Of a stretch of 64,000 nt of DNA, positions 28,726-64,000 are shown piece by piece. The translations under genes were made by a program, and so were the position numbers. Position 1 is the stretch's first letter, and the number at the start of each line of letters is the position of its first letter. The DNA lies in the IMG/VR virus record IMGVR_UViG_3300017963_000011, positions 41,135 to 105,134 of that record. The stretch is one strand, 5' to 3'. The DNA comes from a virus. The notes under the pieces are model-generated. The model made no database searches and was not told the origin of the DNA. It worked only from the letters and a program-made list of their open reading frames with translations.

Positions 28726-28899
28726 TTATAGAACCCCAATGTAGTCCACAAACTGGATGTCGTTATCTTCTGGAAACCACCCGAGATAAATGAGCCTGTC
28801 TTTTGGAATTTGCTTGGCGTAGAAAAAATAGTTATCGTTTTCTTCTAATATACTCAGCTTATTTACTGTTTCTTGTATCTCTTCCCAGGATGGTTTCAT
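28726..28899 (-). CDS. Small acidic protein, 57 residues
   Basis: ATG 28899 is preceded by AAAGGA at 6 bases. The product is acidic, with ILEENDNYFFYAKQIPKDRL in the middle and a final IQFVDYIGVL. It lies just downstream of the tRNA cluster in the direction of transcription. Confidence 0.5.
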   Translation of the reverse strand: MKPSWEEIQETVNKLSILEENDNYFFYAKQIPKDRLIYLGWFPEDNDIQFVDYIGVL

Positions 28900-28916
28900 G
28901 ATCCGTCCTTTCTAGT

Positions 28917-28928
28917 CTCGGCGCCGAG
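28917..28928. repeat. Dispersed palindrome CTCGGCGCCGAG, first exact copy of 22
   Basis: Exact 12-base copies start at 28917, 35268, 38804, 41630, 44253, 45258, 47080, 48037, 48511, 49204, 50368, 51207, 52088, 52694, 53215, 54884, 55290, 56498, 59112, 60798, 61828 and 63133. One-mismatch variants lie near 21226, 51846 and 56129. Flanks are usually ATT or AGT on the left and A(A/T/C)T on the right, extending the symmetry. In the 38-53 kb block most copies lie in a gap of about 20-40 bases between a stop codon and the next ribosome binding site. Confidence 0.92.
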
Positions 28929-28931
28929 ACT

Positions 28932-29064
28932 GATTGCGGTAGCGGGAGATGGAATTCTACCACCCGATCATCCTTTGGTTCACGGGAACGCTAGGCATAT
29001 AGGCTCCATCCTTCCCTAGCCAGCCGCAGGGGGCCTATTCCTGCGAGCCCCGCTACCGTCAATC
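28932..29064 (-). ncRNA. Highly structured RNA candidate next to tRNA genes
   Basis: A 15-base-pair outer stem (28932-28946 with 29049-29064, one bulge) closes a 133-base element. Inside are GCTAGG/CCTAGC (28990-28995 with 29015-29020) and CGCAGG/CCTGCG (29025-29030 with 29040-29045). The loop of the first (ATAGGC, 28999-29004) complements the loop of the second (GCCTAT, 29033-29038), so a kissing-loop or pseudoknot is possible. No open frame is present. It would be transcribed directly after the tRNAs. No known family is recognised. Confidence 0.6.
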
Positions 29065-29076
29065 AGAATTCTCATT

Positions 29077-29152
29077 GGGGCTGGTGACAGGAATCGAACC
29101 CGCAACCACCTCATTACAAGTGAGGCGCTCTACCATTGAGCCACACCAGCCC
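29077..29152 (-). tRNA. tRNA-Thr (anticodon TGT)
   Basis: The cloverleaf is complete: acceptor GGGCTGG/CCAGCCC, D-arm GGCTCAATGGTAGAGC, anticodon stem CCTCA/TGAGG with loop CTTGTAA, and T-arm GCGGG TTCGATT CCTGT. No CCA is encoded. It reads ACA codons, which are rarer in GC-rich hosts. Confidence 0.92.
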
Positions 29153-29167
29153 GTCAATAGGCCGAGG

Positions 29168-29221
29168 GGCGACTATCCGCTTAGGCGCAGACCGGGACCG
29201 CCCTAAGTTTCAGAGGTCGCC
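29168..29221 (-). other. Structured spacer between tRNAs
   Basis: GGCGAC/GTCGCC ends (29168-29173, 29216-29221) enclose CTTAGGCG/CGCCCTAAG (29180-29187, 29199-29207). The element could be a degenerate tRNA or a processing hairpin. Confidence 0.4.
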
Positions 29222-29239
29222 TTTCTCCTCGATGATCTT

Positions 29240-29345
29240 TGGTGGAGGGGGCAGGATTCGAACCTGCAACTGAGACACGGGCGTATGGCGCCTTAAACCC
29301 GCGCTCACCGCTTAACGGCGCGTCTGCCACTTCCGCCACCCCTCC
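29240..29345 (-). tRNA. Class II tRNA, probably Leu, oversized
   Basis: Acceptor GGAGGGG/CCCCTCC, a Leu-type D-arm (GCGGAAGTGGCAGACGC), T-arm GCAGG TTCGAAT CCTGC and an encoded CCA are clear. The body is about 103 bases without CCA, against 85-90 for normal tRNA-Leu. Two TTAAG/TTTAAG stretches compete as the anticodon loop, and GCGCC/GGCGC can enclose both. An extra segment of roughly 17 bases in or next to the anticodon arm is suggested. The anticodon is uncertain (TAA likely). Confidence 0.6.
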
Positions 29346-29357
29346 TTGTTCTATACG

Positions 29358-29450
29358 TGCCGGTGCGCGGGAGTCGAACCCACCACTCCGAGTCTAGTGC
29401 CCCGGCGATCATGAGGAGTCGAACCTCACCGTTTCCGAAGGACACCGGCA
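29358..29450 (-). tRNA. tRNA-like element, class II
   Basis: Ends TGCCGGTG/CACCGGCA pair over 8 bases. There is a good T-arm (GTGGG TTCGACT CCCGC) and an internal 5-bp stem with a 7-base loop (TGAGG TTCGACT CCTCA) that could be an anticodon arm with anticodon CGA (Ser) or a second T-arm. The D-arm is weak and no CCA is encoded. It may be a genuine tRNA-Ser, a fused pair of tRNA parts or a tRNA remnant. Confidence 0.45.
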
Positions 29451-29457
29451 ACTTAGC

Positions 29458-29547
29458 GGGAGAGTGAGGGATTTCAACCCTCGGGTGACATGCGCCGGCC
29501 CCGGAGGTTCAAACCGGGGACCACTCCGTCACGGAGCCCGCTCTCCC
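29458..29547 (-). tRNA. tRNA-like element, possibly Ser (TGA)
   Basis: Acceptor GGGAGAG/CTCTCCC and a T-arm GAGGG TTGAAAT CCCTC are present. CCCCGG/CCGGGG encloses TTTGAACCT, which could present anticodon TGA. An extra hairpin CTCCG TGA CGGAG lies between the acceptor and the anticodon arm, so the D-arm is not standard. No CCA is encoded. Confidence 0.45.
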
Positions 29548-29556
29548 TGTGATCAC

Positions 29557-29772
29557 CTATTCCTGATTGCGGGCCAGCGCTGCGTTGGCCCACATGATGC
29601 CTTCCTCGATCTTCCTGATCGCGAGCGTTTGCTCGGCGCACTGCGGCGTGTACTTGAGGATCGCCTCAGCCGTGATCTTGCCCATGTTGCGGAGACTCTC
29701 GAACTTGTGGATGTTCTCTTCCTGCGGTTTGTGGTACGTGAAGATCCTCTTGATGTCGGCTTCCGTGATCAT
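29557..29772 (-). CDS. acb2: Acb2/Tad1-type cyclic nucleotide sponge (anti-CBASS)
   Basis: The protein has 71 residues from ATG 29772 (GAGAGGACAGAA upstream). It matches the Acb2 pattern: an N-terminal RIFTYHKP segment, a helix with ESLRNMGKITAEAILKYTP and the signature AIRKIEEGIMWANAALARN at the C-terminus. Proteins of this family bind the cyclic di- and trinucleotides made by CBASS and so block that host defence. It lies among the early replication genes next to the tRNAs, a good site for early expression. Confidence 0.8.
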   Translation of the reverse strand: MITEADIKRIFTYHKPQEENIHKFESLRNMGKITAEAILKYTPQCAEQTLAIRKIEEGIMWANAALARNQE

Positions 29773-29829
29773 TTCTGTCCTCTCAGTATGCACCCTCGGG
29801 AGCGCGCCACGGGGACAGGATGGCATCTC

Positions 29830-30012
29830 TCCCGAGAGCGACTTTCAGTCCCCTGAGCCAGCCATGGCTATCGGCCTATCGTGCGCTAAGTATTCTACCC
29901 TAGCGCAAGGTAACGGAGCGCTACCACCGGCTGATCCTGGGAAGTATATCCTGCCCCTTTCCCAGGCCACCGTGTCAGGTCACTTTTTCAACACGGTGGT
30001 AGCGCTACCACT
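29830..30012 (-). promoter_or_regulatory. Gene-free leader with three hairpins
   Basis: Three inverted repeats follow each other: TGCGCTA/TAGCGCA (29882-29888, 29901-29907), CCTGGGAA/TTCCCAGG (29936-29943, 29959-29966) and CACCGTGT/ACACGGTG (29968-29975, 29991-29998). A TAGCGCTA palindrome lies at 30000 and a partial copy at 29918. The stretch separates the H1-like gene from the Acb2 gene. A regulated or processed leader is likely. Confidence 0.5.
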
Positions 30013-45240: not shown

Positions 45241-45278
45241 GTCAGAGTCCTTTCAGTCTCGGCGCCGAGACTAGGCGT

Positions 45279-53299: not shown

Positions 53300-54080
53300 G
53301 CCTCTGCCGGGACGCGTTTCTACATCTATTATATAGCATGTTTCCAGGTCGTATTCCACTACCCTCTCGCGCGCGTGCGCACGCACCACTACCCTCTCGC
53401 ATGTGTGTTCTCGTTTTCACCACCTTACCCGTCACCACCCTCTCATGCGCGTTATCACCACCTTACCCCCCACCACCTTATCGACGCGTATCACCCCCGT
53501 GCGTCATGGTTGACGCCTCGACGGGTCTACGCGCGGGCGGGCGCGGGTTGACGGGTCTACGCGGGCGGGCGCGCGTATAGTATATATAGACACGAGAGAC
53601 GCGCGCGGGCGCCCGCGCCCGCGAAGAAAGGAATCGCACGCGCGCATGCGGGCGCGCGTCCTATAGACGGGCGGGCGCGTCTATCGGGCCGGCTCGCTTC
53701 CTTTTCTTCGGGCGTGCGGGCGGGCGCATGCGTGCGCGCGTCCTATAGACGGCGCGCGAATCCATTGAATCAGCGGGCGCCGCCCATGCTACGTCTCATG
53801 GCGTAGCGCTACCACGGGCGGGCGCCGGCCGCCGGCTCGGGCCGGCGGCCCGAGCGGCCCGCAAGGCGGCGCCAGATTCGCCACGAGAGCGCCGGAATCG
53901 GCCCGAATTGGGCCGCAAGCCAGCCGGCCCGAGTATCGGCCCGGCTCGGCCCCTTGCGGCCGTTAGACGGCGAATCTGCTAGACGCTACGCACGCGCCCG
54001 CGTCTATATAGTACATGACGCACGGGCACGGGCGCGCGAAGAAAAGGAAAGGGCCGGCCCTTTCAATGCGTAGACGGGCG
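53300..54080. other. GC-rich gene-free region with repeated blocks
   Basis: About 780 bases without a gene. Short direct repeats ACCACC-CTCTCGC and TACGCGCGGGCGG, alternating GC runs, the blocks CGAAGAAAGGAA and CCTTTTCTTCGGGC (reverse complements of each other) and TATA-like boxes occur. Repeat element A and a TAGCGCTA palindrome (53804) are embedded. Confidence 0.7.
53874..53984 (+). repeat. Long repeat element, copy A
   Basis: About 111 bases from AGATTCGCCACGAGAG to CGAATCTGCTAGAC. Inner parts contain GGAATCGGCCC and CGTTAGACGG. The ends are inverted (AGATTCGCC...GGCGAATCT). A TAGCGCTA palindrome sits about 65 bases to its left. Confidence 0.8.
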
Positions 54081-54118
54081 CGCGTATAAAGAAAGCCGCC
54101 GGGCACGGCCCGGCGGCG
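54081..54118 (-). terminator. Terminator of sigma54 unit 1
   Basis: The stem GCCGCCGGGC/GCCCGGCGGC is followed on the minus strand by TTTCTTTAT. Confidence 0.8.
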
Positions 54119-54132
54119 CTGGCGCTCGGCTG

Positions 54133-54312
54133 TCAGCCGAGCCATGCGAGCATACGCACGAGAGCGAGCCCGCCGGCCGTGCCGATCGCCATGGCGAAGG
54201 CGGCCCCTAGCAGAATCACGCGCGCCCGCATTCGACGGGCGGCGCGCTCGGCTCGTATGTCTTCGATACGAGACGGAATCACTCGAAATGAAACGCACAT
54301 GGCTTGTCTCAT
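54133..54312 (-). CDS. Small membrane protein (59 residues), sigma54 unit 1
   Basis: ATG 54312 overlaps the previous stop as ATGA. After a basic N-terminus, residues about 33-58 form a membrane segment (VILLGAAFAMAIGTAGGLAL). It is the last gene of the unit. Confidence 0.6.
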   Translation of the reverse strand: MRQAMCVSFRVIPSRIEDIRAERAARRMRARVILLGAAFAMAIGTAGGLALVRMLAWLG

Positions 54313-54491
54313 GGCGTCTCGATTCCAGCCACGCTATATACGTCTTCGATAACGTAATACGTGGCGCCGCGCCGCCCGATATAGACAACGCGGCCCGGCT
54401 TGAAAAACGAGCCGCCCGAGCAAGACGCTTGCACGTCTTCGAAGCGGCCCATGTGTACTGTCGCCGTCTCGCCGTCTCGTGCGCGTATCAC
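54309..54491 (-). CDS. Unknown small protein, start uncertain
   Basis: The certain part from GTG 54491 is IRARDGETATVHMGRFEDV and on to VAGIETP, strand-rich with one Cys. The frame stays open upstream with protein-like codons (FHVYELDNRIG) to about 54605, without an ATG, so the true start may be a rare codon further up. Confidence 0.5.
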   Translation of the reverse strand: MIRARDGETATVHMGRFEDVQASCSGGSFFKPGRVVYIGRRGATYYVIEDVYSVAGIETP

Positions 54492-54608
54492 GCCGATTCG
54501 GTTATCAAGCTCGTATACATGGAATTCGGCGCCCGTACCACGGGCGGCCGGCGCTACGGTCGCCGAGCCCGGCGCAATGCCGAGCCCGGCGCCGTTTGCC
54601 GCGCCGTT

Positions 54609-54773
54609 TCATCCTACAAGCGAGACGAGCACGAGCACGAGCATGACGAGCCCGAGCACGGCCGAGCCGGCCCGCTTCGCCAGCCGCAAGCGGCGGGCGT
54701 CTCGCTCGGCGAGAATGGCGCGGGCGGCGCGCCGCGTTTCCTTGCGAATCTTCTTCGCCACGATACCTCGCAT
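54609..54773 (-). CDS. Small basic membrane protein (54 residues), sigma54 unit 1
   Basis: ATG 54773 follows GAAAGGGGAACACAC, the leader shared by most genes in this region. Residues 1-34 are strongly basic and 37-53 form a membrane helix (AVLGLVMLVLVLVSLVG). It is the first gene of unit 1. Confidence 0.65.
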   Translation of the reverse strand: MRGIVAKKIRKETRRAARAILAERDARRLRLAKRAGSAVLGLVMLVLVLVSLVG

Positions 54774-54833
54774 GTGTGTTCCCCTTTCGGGAGTCTCGGC
54801 CGGCCGCTCGGCTCGGCGGCTCGGGCCGTCTAA

Positions 54834-54855
54834 CCTATGTCGCCGAGAATGGCAA
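54834..54855 (-). promoter_or_regulatory. T7-like phage promoter, copy 7 (degenerate)
   Basis: Minus-strand TTGCCATTCTCGGC followed by GACATAGG, 60 bases before ATG 54773. It directly follows a sigma54-type box, so two promoter types overlap here. Confidence 0.45.
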
Positions 54856-54870
54856 GCAAGGGCCGTGCCA
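54855..54870 (-). promoter_or_regulatory. Sigma54-type promoter of unit 1
   Basis: Minus-strand TGGCACGGCCCTTGCT has GG and GC separated by exactly 10 bases and fits the -24/-12 consensus TGGCAC-N5-TTGCW. The gene starts about 83 bases after the -12 box. Confidence 0.75.
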
Positions 54871-54939
54871 GCCGGGCCGCATTCTCGGCGCCGAGAATGA
54901 GCCGGCGCTTCGTATCATGACGCCCGATTCATTAAATTT

Positions 54940-55062
54940 TTTTGCCCCTGTATAGTACGCGTGCATGCGTCTATATATAGGGGCCAAATTGCTTCCTTTT
55001 CTTCGGGCGCACGGGCGCGCGCCCGTGCGGGCGCGTGCGTATAGTATATATAGACATGTATC
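54940..55062. other. GC-rich gene-free stretch with TATA and purine block
   Basis: Alternating GC runs with TATATATA boxes and CCTTTTCTTCGGGCG lie between two units, left of repeat B. No open frame with the local leader motif is present. Confidence 0.6.
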
Positions 55063-55173
55063 GTCTAGCAGATTCGCCGTCTAACGGCCGATCGCCTTTC
55101 ATGCGGCCCGATACTCGGGCGGCCGGCCGATCGGCCGAATCCGGCCCGATTCCGGGCGTCTCGTGGCGAATCT
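55063..55173 (-). repeat. Long repeat element, copy B
   Basis: The same element as copy A in the opposite orientation, from GTCTAGCAGATTCGCC to CTCGTGGCGAATCT. A TAGCGCTA palindrome follows about 48 bases to its right (55221). Confidence 0.8.
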
Positions 55174-55252
55174 GGCGCGCCGCTCGGGCGCCCGAGCGGG
55201 CCGCCGGCCGGCGGCGGGCGTAGCGCTACCACGAGACGGCGCGCGCGCGTAT

Positions 55253-55283
55253 AAGAAAAGCCGCCGGCCGATCGGCCGGCGGC
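55253..55283 (-). terminator. Terminator of sigma54 unit 2
   Basis: The stem GCCGCCGGCCGA/TCGGCCGGCGGC is followed on the minus strand by TTTTCTTAT. Confidence 0.8.
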
Positions 55284-55302
55284 CCGAGTCTCGGCGCCGA
55301 GA

Positions 55303-55710
55303 CTACATGCGGCGGCGGCGCCGGCTCTCGTGCTCTCGCCATTCGCGCCGCATGCGGGCGTCTCGGCGGCGGGCGTCTCGATCGCGCCGCTTGTAAAGCC
55401 TACGTATGGCGTGCTCGGCGCGCTTATACGTCTCGCTCTCGGGCTCGAATTGCCCGAGTAGATTCCACAGTGGCGAATCGTCACACGTCATGCCTTCGCC
55501 GTGCTCGTTTACGGCTTGCGCTACTCGATTCAGCGCTTCGGCCGCGCCTTTTGCCATGTCTCGGGCCGTGCGGCGCTCTCGCTCGGCGCCGGGCCGGCCG
55601 GCGGCTTCGGCGAAGATTCGCATGTCGTCTTGTCTCGTGGCGTTTTTGTACATGACGCCCGCCATGAGACGCAACATGAAGGCGACGACGTTTCGCGTGT
55701 CTTTGTCCAT
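55303..55710 (-). CDS. Unknown protein, sigma54 unit 2
   Basis: The protein has 135 residues. It starts 2 bases after the previous stop. The helical N-terminal part (NVVAFMLRLMAGVMYKN) may be membrane-associated, and the C-terminus is Arg-rich (EWREHESRRRRRM). Its stop lies at a palindrome copy, which adjoins the terminator. Confidence 0.6.
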   Translation of the reverse strand: MDKDTRNVVAFMLRLMAGVMYKNATRQDDMRIFAEAAGRPGAERERRTARDMAKGAAEALNRVAQAVNEHGEGMTCDDSPLWNLLGQFEPESETYKRAEHAIRRLYKRRDRDARRRDARMRREWREHESRRRRRM

Positions 55711-55712
55711 GT

Positions 55713-55997
55713 CTAGTCTACTCGCTTCCCGTGCTCGTCAATCTCGTATGCGTCAAGATACATGGTCACACTGGCTTCGGCGGGCTCGGCGACGGCGGCG
55801 CGGCGCTGGCGCCAGCCGTCCATGCGCGGGCCGAGCGAGCGGCCCGCCGAGACGAGCCCGAGAGCGAGCACGGCGCCGAGCACGAGCCCGGCGGCCCATG
55901 CGAAGGCGCGGCGGCGGCGGCGCCGGCGGCCGGCGGCCCGTGCGCGAATGATAGACCGTGCCATGTGGCTTCGGCCCTTAATCGTTTCGTCTTTCAC
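55713..55997 (-). CDS. Membrane protein, sigma54 unit 2
   Basis: The protein has 94 residues from GTG 55997 behind GAAAGGGGAACAC; ATG 55964 is the alternative. An Arg-rich stretch precedes one membrane segment (FAWAAGLVLGAVLALGLV), followed by an outside domain with YLDAYEIDEHGK. This is a single-pass membrane protein. Confidence 0.6.
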   Translation of the reverse strand: MKDETIKGRSHMARSIIRARAAGRRRRRRRAFAWAAGLVLGAVLALGLVSAGRSLGPRMDGWRQRRAAVAEPAEASVTMYLDAYEIDEHGKRVD

Positions 55998-56050
55998 GTG
56001 TTCCCCTTTCGGCCCGGCGCCGCTCGGCCGGCGGCGCACGCATTCGACTA

Positions 56051-56066
56051 TGCAAGGGCCGTGCCA
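56051..56066 (-). promoter_or_regulatory. Sigma54-type promoter of unit 2
   Basis: Minus-strand TGGCACGGCCCTTGCA is a perfect -24/-12 match, 54 bases before GTG 55997. Confidence 0.85.
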
Positions 56067-56164
56067 TTCTCGGCCATGACATGTCAGCCGTGCCCGAGCA
56101 CGGCGCCGAGAGCGAGCCGGCCCATGTTCTTGGCGCCGAGAATGGCGGGCGCCAGCCGGGCCGA

Positions 56165-56286
56165 GACTGACAGCCATGCCAGTCTCGCCGAAGCATACAA
56201 TGTCAGCCGAGCGGCTGAAAGCCGCTTCCAGAGCGGATTAGAGCCTACTGACAAAAATGTCAGTATGGCTGACATGGATGCCAGCC
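56165..56286. promoter_or_regulatory. Shared upstream operator cluster 1
   Basis: Contains ACTGACAGCCATGCCAGT (56167-56184), CTGACAAAAATGTCAG (56248-56263) and GGCTGACATGGATGCCAGCC (56267-56286). It lies between the divergent promoters at 56051 and 56434. Similar groups lie near 59131-59253 and 61810-62015. Such inverted repeats fit enhancer-binding-protein sites. Confidence 0.7.
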
Positions 56287-56433
56287 GGGCCGGCCTTATA
56301 GTAGACGGGCGCATGACGCGCGCCCGCACGCGCGCCCGCACGCGCGCCCGAAGAATCGGAAGCGATCGGCCATACAACGCGCGCGGGCGGGCGCGTAGAC
56401 TGCGCCCGCGTCATGTATATAGGGCCGCCGAGC

Positions 56434-56450
56434 TTGGCACGGCCCTTGCA
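56434..56450 (+). promoter_or_regulatory. Sigma54-type promoter of unit 3
   Basis: TTGGCACGGCCCTTGCA matches -24/-12 perfectly. The gene starts about 210 bases later, leaving a long leader with a palindrome copy (56498) and a separate TTGACA box. Confidence 0.85.
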
Positions 56451-63698: not shown

Positions 63699-64000
63699 CT
63701 ACAAAAGTGCGCGTTTTATCCGCTTTTCGCTCATAACAGCGTATTTCTTATTGATCTCTATGCCGATGTAGCGCCTGCTCAGAGAGCAAGCAGCGAGTCC
63801 TGTAGTACCTGCGCCAGAGAATGGATCTAACACGATGCAAGGTACGGTTTCTTCGGTATCGCATGCGCACATCTGCTGCCAGCCTAGTGTGTGATAATCT
63901 GCTACTCCGCGGGTTACGGTCTCGTCTAGTGCTTCTCGTTTGCCTATTTCTCTGAAGCCAGATGCTACCGGGCCTTTGCGTGTAGAGGACTTCCGTTCAA
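63699..64000 (-). CDS. DNA methyltransferase, C-terminal part (cut by window)
   Basis: The last 100 residues are visible. A CxC pair in CACDTEE is followed by CIVLDPFSGAGTTG (motif I, AdoMet binding) and YIGIEINKKY, typical of the C-terminal end of N4/N6-type phage methyltransferases whose target motif precedes motif I. The 5' part lies beyond base 64000. Its composition matches the main genome rather than the GC-rich region. Confidence 0.88.
   Translation of the reverse strand, partial: ERKSSTRKGPVASGFREIGKREALDETVTRGVADYHTLGWQQMCACDTEETVPCIVLDPFSGAGTTGLAACSLSRRYIGIEINKKYAVMSEKRIKRALL

Follow-up and report, generated by a model that had tools for sequence, protein, structure and literature searches.

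Gene content and organization of the locus

The window analysed here is a stretch of 64,000 nucleotides, corresponding to positions 41135-105134 of a 105-kb virus record. The genes located around 25-33 kb of the window all lie on the minus strand, where a 321-amino acid open reading frame (ORF) is followed by a 242-nt non-coding leader, an 89-amino acid ORF, three class-II tRNA-like genes, an 80-nt spacer, tRNA-Thr, the element studied here, a palindrome with a ribosome site and a 57-amino acid ORF, and then by two more small ORFs and the DNA polymerase. The features of this region are listed below, in window coordinates:

29912..30012, minus strand: second stem-closed element of similar build, within the Acb2-like gene's leader, with an outer stem of 15 bp (29915-30009)
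29557..29826, minus strand: 89-amino acid ORF of an Acb2/Tad1 hairpin-domain protein, the unit's first gene; its start is more likely at 29771
29240..29547, minus strand: three class-II tRNA-like genes (29458-29547, 29359-29449 and 29240-29345), read from the sequence
29076..29150, minus strand: tRNA-Thr (UGU), the last tRNA of the array, called by ARAGORN and Rfam
28930..29066, minus strand: the whole element, a putative stem-closed structured RNA module of ~137 nt, with a 17-bp outer stem and fold z-scores of -3.2 to -4.5
29049..29066, minus strand: 5' arm of the outer stem, CUGAUUGaCGGUAGCGGG, pair probabilities 0.97-1.0
29025..29045, minus strand: hairpin 1, CGCAGG/CCUGCG, with AUAGGC in its loop (29033-29038), pair probabilities 0.97-0.99
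28990..29020, minus strand: hairpin 2, with GCCUAU in its loop (28999-29004), only 44% populated (pair probability 0.44)
28947..28965, minus strand: hairpin adjoining the outer stem, ~6 bp, with the 7-nt loop UAGAAUU
28930..28946, minus strand: 3' arm of the outer stem, CCCGCUACCGCAAUCAG, pairing with 29049-29066
28915..28930, minus strand: GTCTCGGCGCCGAGAC palindrome, followed by a ribosome site and the ATG at 28899 of the 57-amino acid ORF

A preliminary description of this DNA had placed the element after a tRNA cluster and in the same transcript. Its position was confirmed, as it lies directly 3' of tRNA-Thr with a gap of ~6 nt, similar to the spacing of the other array members, whereas the cluster itself had to be qualified: tRNA-Thr alone was called by ARAGORN and Rfam, and the three tRNA-like genes upstream were not called by ARAGORN on 29240..29547, two of them reaching a sub-threshold 24 bits with the Rfam tRNA-Sec model. 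We infer the shared transcript from the common strand and from our finding no promoter-like or terminator-like site between the tRNAs and the element. The three tRNA-like genes exhibit long variable arms and odd D-arms. The spacer that separates tRNA-Thr from the tRNA-Leu-like gene (29155-29240, minus strand) has a hairpin of its own (z -1.3) and contains GGCCUAUU, which is perfectly complementary over 8 nt to the hairpin-1 loop AAUAGGCC.

The element is present as a single copy, searches of the phage revealing no convincing third copy, and no significant ORF crosses it. Its far end abuts the next gene's start cassette, which in leftward genes has the form TCTCGGCGCCGAGAATGAAAGGA..ATG. All 17 copies of the palindrome TTCTCGGCGCCGAGAA located before 54 kb directly precede a ribosome-site-like motif and a start-codon triplet of a leftward gene, and therefore the element is probably no part of the cassette from which the next gene starts.

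Folding of the element and its outer stem

The outer stem, initially described as 15 bp, proved to be real and 2 bp longer, comprising 10 bp, one bulged base and a further 7 bp (28930-28946/29049-29066). The predicted folding energy of the element was -58.6 kcal/mol on the plus strand and -59.1 kcal/mol on the minus strand, with z-scores of -4.5 and -3.2, respectively, and none of 200 shuffles folded as low on either strand. Since both strands fold about equally well, energy does not choose between them. In a sliding scan of the whole window the element ranked by z among the best 1.2% of windows on the plus strand and about 7.4% on the minus strand, and is therefore not a genome-wide extreme.

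A search for stems of at least 15 bp within 220 nt identified seven in the window, five of which fell inside its GC-rich last 10 kb, leaving in the first 54 kb only that of the element and that at 29915-30009. A stem of at least 17 bp appeared in the first 54 kb in one of 20 shuffles. Because of this comparison with shuffled sequence, we conclude that the outer stem is real and that a chance origin is unlikely. An inverted repeat that arose by chance in a compact intergenic stretch would agree with the 0-2 stems of at least 15 bp that shuffles yield per window, and with the frequency of the loop match described below, yet both such stems lie at one unit, and the 17-bp length and the energy comparison speak against it as well, making this explanation of the element very improbable. 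The folding statistics, together with the place in the array and the absence of an ORF, support a structured RNA beside the tRNA genes.

Inner hairpins and the proposed loop-loop contact

Within the outer stem, the preliminary description had recognized two hairpins whose loops can pair. Hairpin 1 and the 6-nt complementarity of the loops (GCCUAU/AUAGGC, 28999-29004 with 29033-29038) were borne out, while the kissing contact itself was not: hairpin 2, at a pair probability below one half, is rivalled on the transcribed strand by the pairing GGGAA/UUCCC at equal energy (-59.0 versus -59.1 kcal/mol), and 2.3% of shuffled interiors, as well as 37 of 1608 genome windows, likewise contained two hairpins with 6-nt complementary loops. 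Unrelated bacterial repeat pairs, taken on either strand, gave a comparable loop match in 8 of 62 cases. As a free duplex the 6-bp contact amounts to -6.6 kcal/mol, which could tip the balance toward hairpin 2; a loop-to-loop contact is possible, at a level weakly above chance. The hairpin at 28947..28965 resembles a T-arm by shape, not by sequence.

The purine riboswitch is a three-way junction with a loop-loop contact, and the element is similar to it in having a closing stem and two neighbouring hairpins with complementary loops; it differs in its lack of an Rfam match, in its unstable hairpin 2 and in an additional 40-nt segment. The two mutually exclusive pairings of hairpin 2, equal in energy, could represent the switch of a riboswitch-like or attenuator-like leader acting in cis on the 57-amino acid ORF, whose ATG, preceded by a good ribosome site, lies ~30 nt downstream of the element. 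Such a role is improbable, given that no Rfam riboswitch matched, that the ORF's own palindrome separates its ribosome site from the element, and that the tRNA genes upstream put the element in the middle of a transcript rather than in a 5' leader.

Searches for relatives of the element

The statement that the element does not resemble tmRNA, RNase P or a known riboswitch held in Rfam searches at gathering and relaxed thresholds, in which no riboswitch, tmRNA, RNase P or ribozyme model matched 28932-29064 at E-values up to 10. Partial matches to beta-tmRNA and YrlA near the element were rejected, since they rely on a tRNA-like gene's T-arm. BLASTN searches of phages and plasmids returned only tRNA-Thr or words of up to 25 nt, and the phage, plasmid and viral contig sequences that we searched contained no sequence relative of the element. 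A search of viral contigs for the kissing motif yielded one simple hairpin, not accompanied by tRNAs, and a palindrome scan yielded single sites without common genes; both were judged to be chance.

Relatives of the phage itself were sought in viral contigs using polymerase, helicase, recombinase and terminase peptides, and no close one was found. Among annotated phages, the polymerase, recombinase, helicase and terminase matches reached only about 22-36% identity, and a polymerase profile search gave only relatives of 21-32% identity, in which the covariance model of the element had no match. The phage is a tailed phage and an orphan, with no relative found that is close enough for covariation analysis.

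A second stem-closed element upstream of the Acb2-like gene

The 89-amino acid ORF matched PF24729 with 46.4 bits (E 4.4e-12, cut-off 27) and also phrog_1454. Proteins of the Acb2/Tad1 family are phage sponges for defence signalling nucleotides. The Acb2/Tad1-like anti-defence gene lies directly upstream of the tRNA array, and its 242-nt leader, which holds the second element, has a fold z-score of -4.8. The two long stems sit on opposite sides of the Acb2-like/tRNA unit.

A covariance model with the element as its sole input, run over nearly the whole record, returned the element, its antisense and 29912-30012 (15.3 bits, E 0.34), the latter being the only match in the record that was neither self nor antisense. 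Direct alignment of the two elements gave p-values of 0.002 (local) and 0.0003 (global) relative to dinucleotide-shuffled sequences, and in a genome-wide ranking of alignments the second element narrowly led, with 42 versus 39.5. These results are suggestive of a common origin of the element and 29912-30012.

The main rival to a stable RNA, and to our minds a rather unlikely one, is that the two stems are processing brackets, cut by a nuclease of the RNase III type that is specific for double strands, which would separate the Acb2-like/tRNA unit from the neighbouring genes and protect the ends, the interior being functionless. That the only two stems of at least 15 bp outside the GC-rich region flank a single unit, and that no non-self match to the first scores higher than the second, either by covariance model or, apart from the antisense, by direct alignment, argues for this explanation; however, the match barely exceeds the next-best windows, it was noticed before being tested, and a bulged stem of 17 bp is short for RNase III unless stacked on another helix. 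More speculatively, and with little likelihood, the two could be diverged copies of a stem-closed phage RNA, small and of a new class, that bracket the Acb2-like gene and the tRNA array, vary in their loop-loop contacts and serve the unit's anti-defence or tRNA function, possible examples being an RNA decoy or a processing guide.

Comparison with Blastocatellia repeats

The two arms of the outer stem, expressed as the pattern CGGTAGCGGG-N85-115-CCCGCTACCG, matched 65 stretches in genome contigs, mostly of Blastocatellia (Acidobacteriota) and several per genome, compared to ~7 expected by our own estimate, and none in viral contigs. In Blastocatellia an interspersed inverted repeat, GTCAGAACCACCTGCGGTAGCGGGTGGTT, has the pattern as its core; a limited literature search found no description of this repeat. 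It is abundant in the group, where a genome may carry as many as about 75 copies of the core. The repeat shares with the element the words TGCGGTAGCGGG / CCCGCTACCG as an inverted pair, whereas its hairpin stem ACCACC/GGTGGT is absent from the phage and the interiors are unrelated; likewise, the full repeat unit, GTCAGWACCACC-TGCGGTAGCG-GGTGGT, was not found in the phage, only a core of 10-12 bases being common.

These matches raise the alternative that the stem consists of inverted repeat units acting at the DNA level, akin to the interspersed palindromic repeat of a host or to the GGTAGCGCTACC palindromes of the phage, the RNA fold being a by-product. The excess of matching stretches points in this direction, as do the up to 75 occurrences of TGCGGTAGCGGG in some matching genomes and the 35 GGTAGCGCTACC-like palindromes of the phage. 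Nevertheless, the host repeat (GTCAGAACCACC..GGTGGTT) is absent from the phage beyond the common bases, the covariance model matches in these genomes covered the outer stem only, among the alignments listed, the element is single-copy, and there was no independent sign of a Blastocatellia host: a comparison of the phage with 147 Blastocatellia genomes gave only low-complexity, tRNA or a few short matches. We consider this alternative distinctly unlikely, and the match of the outer-stem words may be coincidental, helped by the GGTAGCG-rich palindromes of the phage.

Comparison with T4 and other phage RNAs

The reading that we prefer, at a probability of roughly 0.38, is that the element is a non-coding RNA module that ends the Acb2-like/tRNA unit, is co-transcribed and processed with the tRNAs into a stable RNA, and is placed like the species 1 and species 2 RNAs of T4. 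In the annotation of T4 record X03016, the array's final tRNA is immediately followed, on the same strand, by species 1 RNA (137 nt) and species 2 RNA (120 nt), so that both the position and the size correspond to those of the element, and species 1 is strongly folded (z -4.4). The T4 RNAs have no detectable homology to the element in sequence or structure, the covariance model matching neither species, and species 1 has a T-arm, GGUUCGAAUCC, and is without a long closing stem. In the stable-RNA reading, leftward transcription would carry the element together with the tRNAs, the 17-bp stem joining its two ends would protect it, and 3' processing of the tRNA just upstream together with cleavage at or below the stem would release a stable RNA of ~135 nt, whose junction and loops would most likely bind a protein or RNA of the host or phage.

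The closing stem, with pair probabilities near 1, and the T4 precedent favor the stable-RNA reading, as do the folding energy, lower than in any shuffle, the ~6-nt gap to tRNA-Thr, the absence of a significant ORF and the position of the element relative to the next gene's cassette. Counted against it are the weak fold of species 2 (z -0.8), the folding energies that do not distinguish the strands, the lack of a homologue of the element in our searches and the second similar stem, which is found in a gene leader rather than behind a tRNA and fits processing or leader roles better.

Phages also encode the GOLLD and ROOL RNAs, which often lie near tRNA islands and have kissing loops (PMC12286853). 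Unlike the element, these are far larger (many GOLLD RNAs exceed 800 nt), ornate and supported by covariation, and their Rfam covariance models did not match it. Phage tRNA arrays have yielded stable RNAs ever since T4, and the larger GOLLD and ROOL proved to be structurally remarkable; a small, well-delimited RNA adjoining an anti-defence gene would offer an easy target for testing the role of such RNAs.

Palindrome families and the GC-rich end of the window

The palindrome TTCTCGGCGCCGAGAA occurs at 25 sites between 21225 and 63146 of the window (e.g., 28915-28930 and 45256-45271), compared to 0.7 expected. The second family, GGTAGCGCTACC-like, has its 35 copies distributed across the whole record (2995-63514 in the window), many of them intergenic. 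Both families have the common centre GCGC, on which 29 of the 46 perfect palindromes of at least 12 nt outside the GC-rich end are also centred. That end (54000-64000) has a GC content of 64%, versus 54% elsewhere, and is rich in palindromes and very stable predicted folds, with several long inverted repeats as well.
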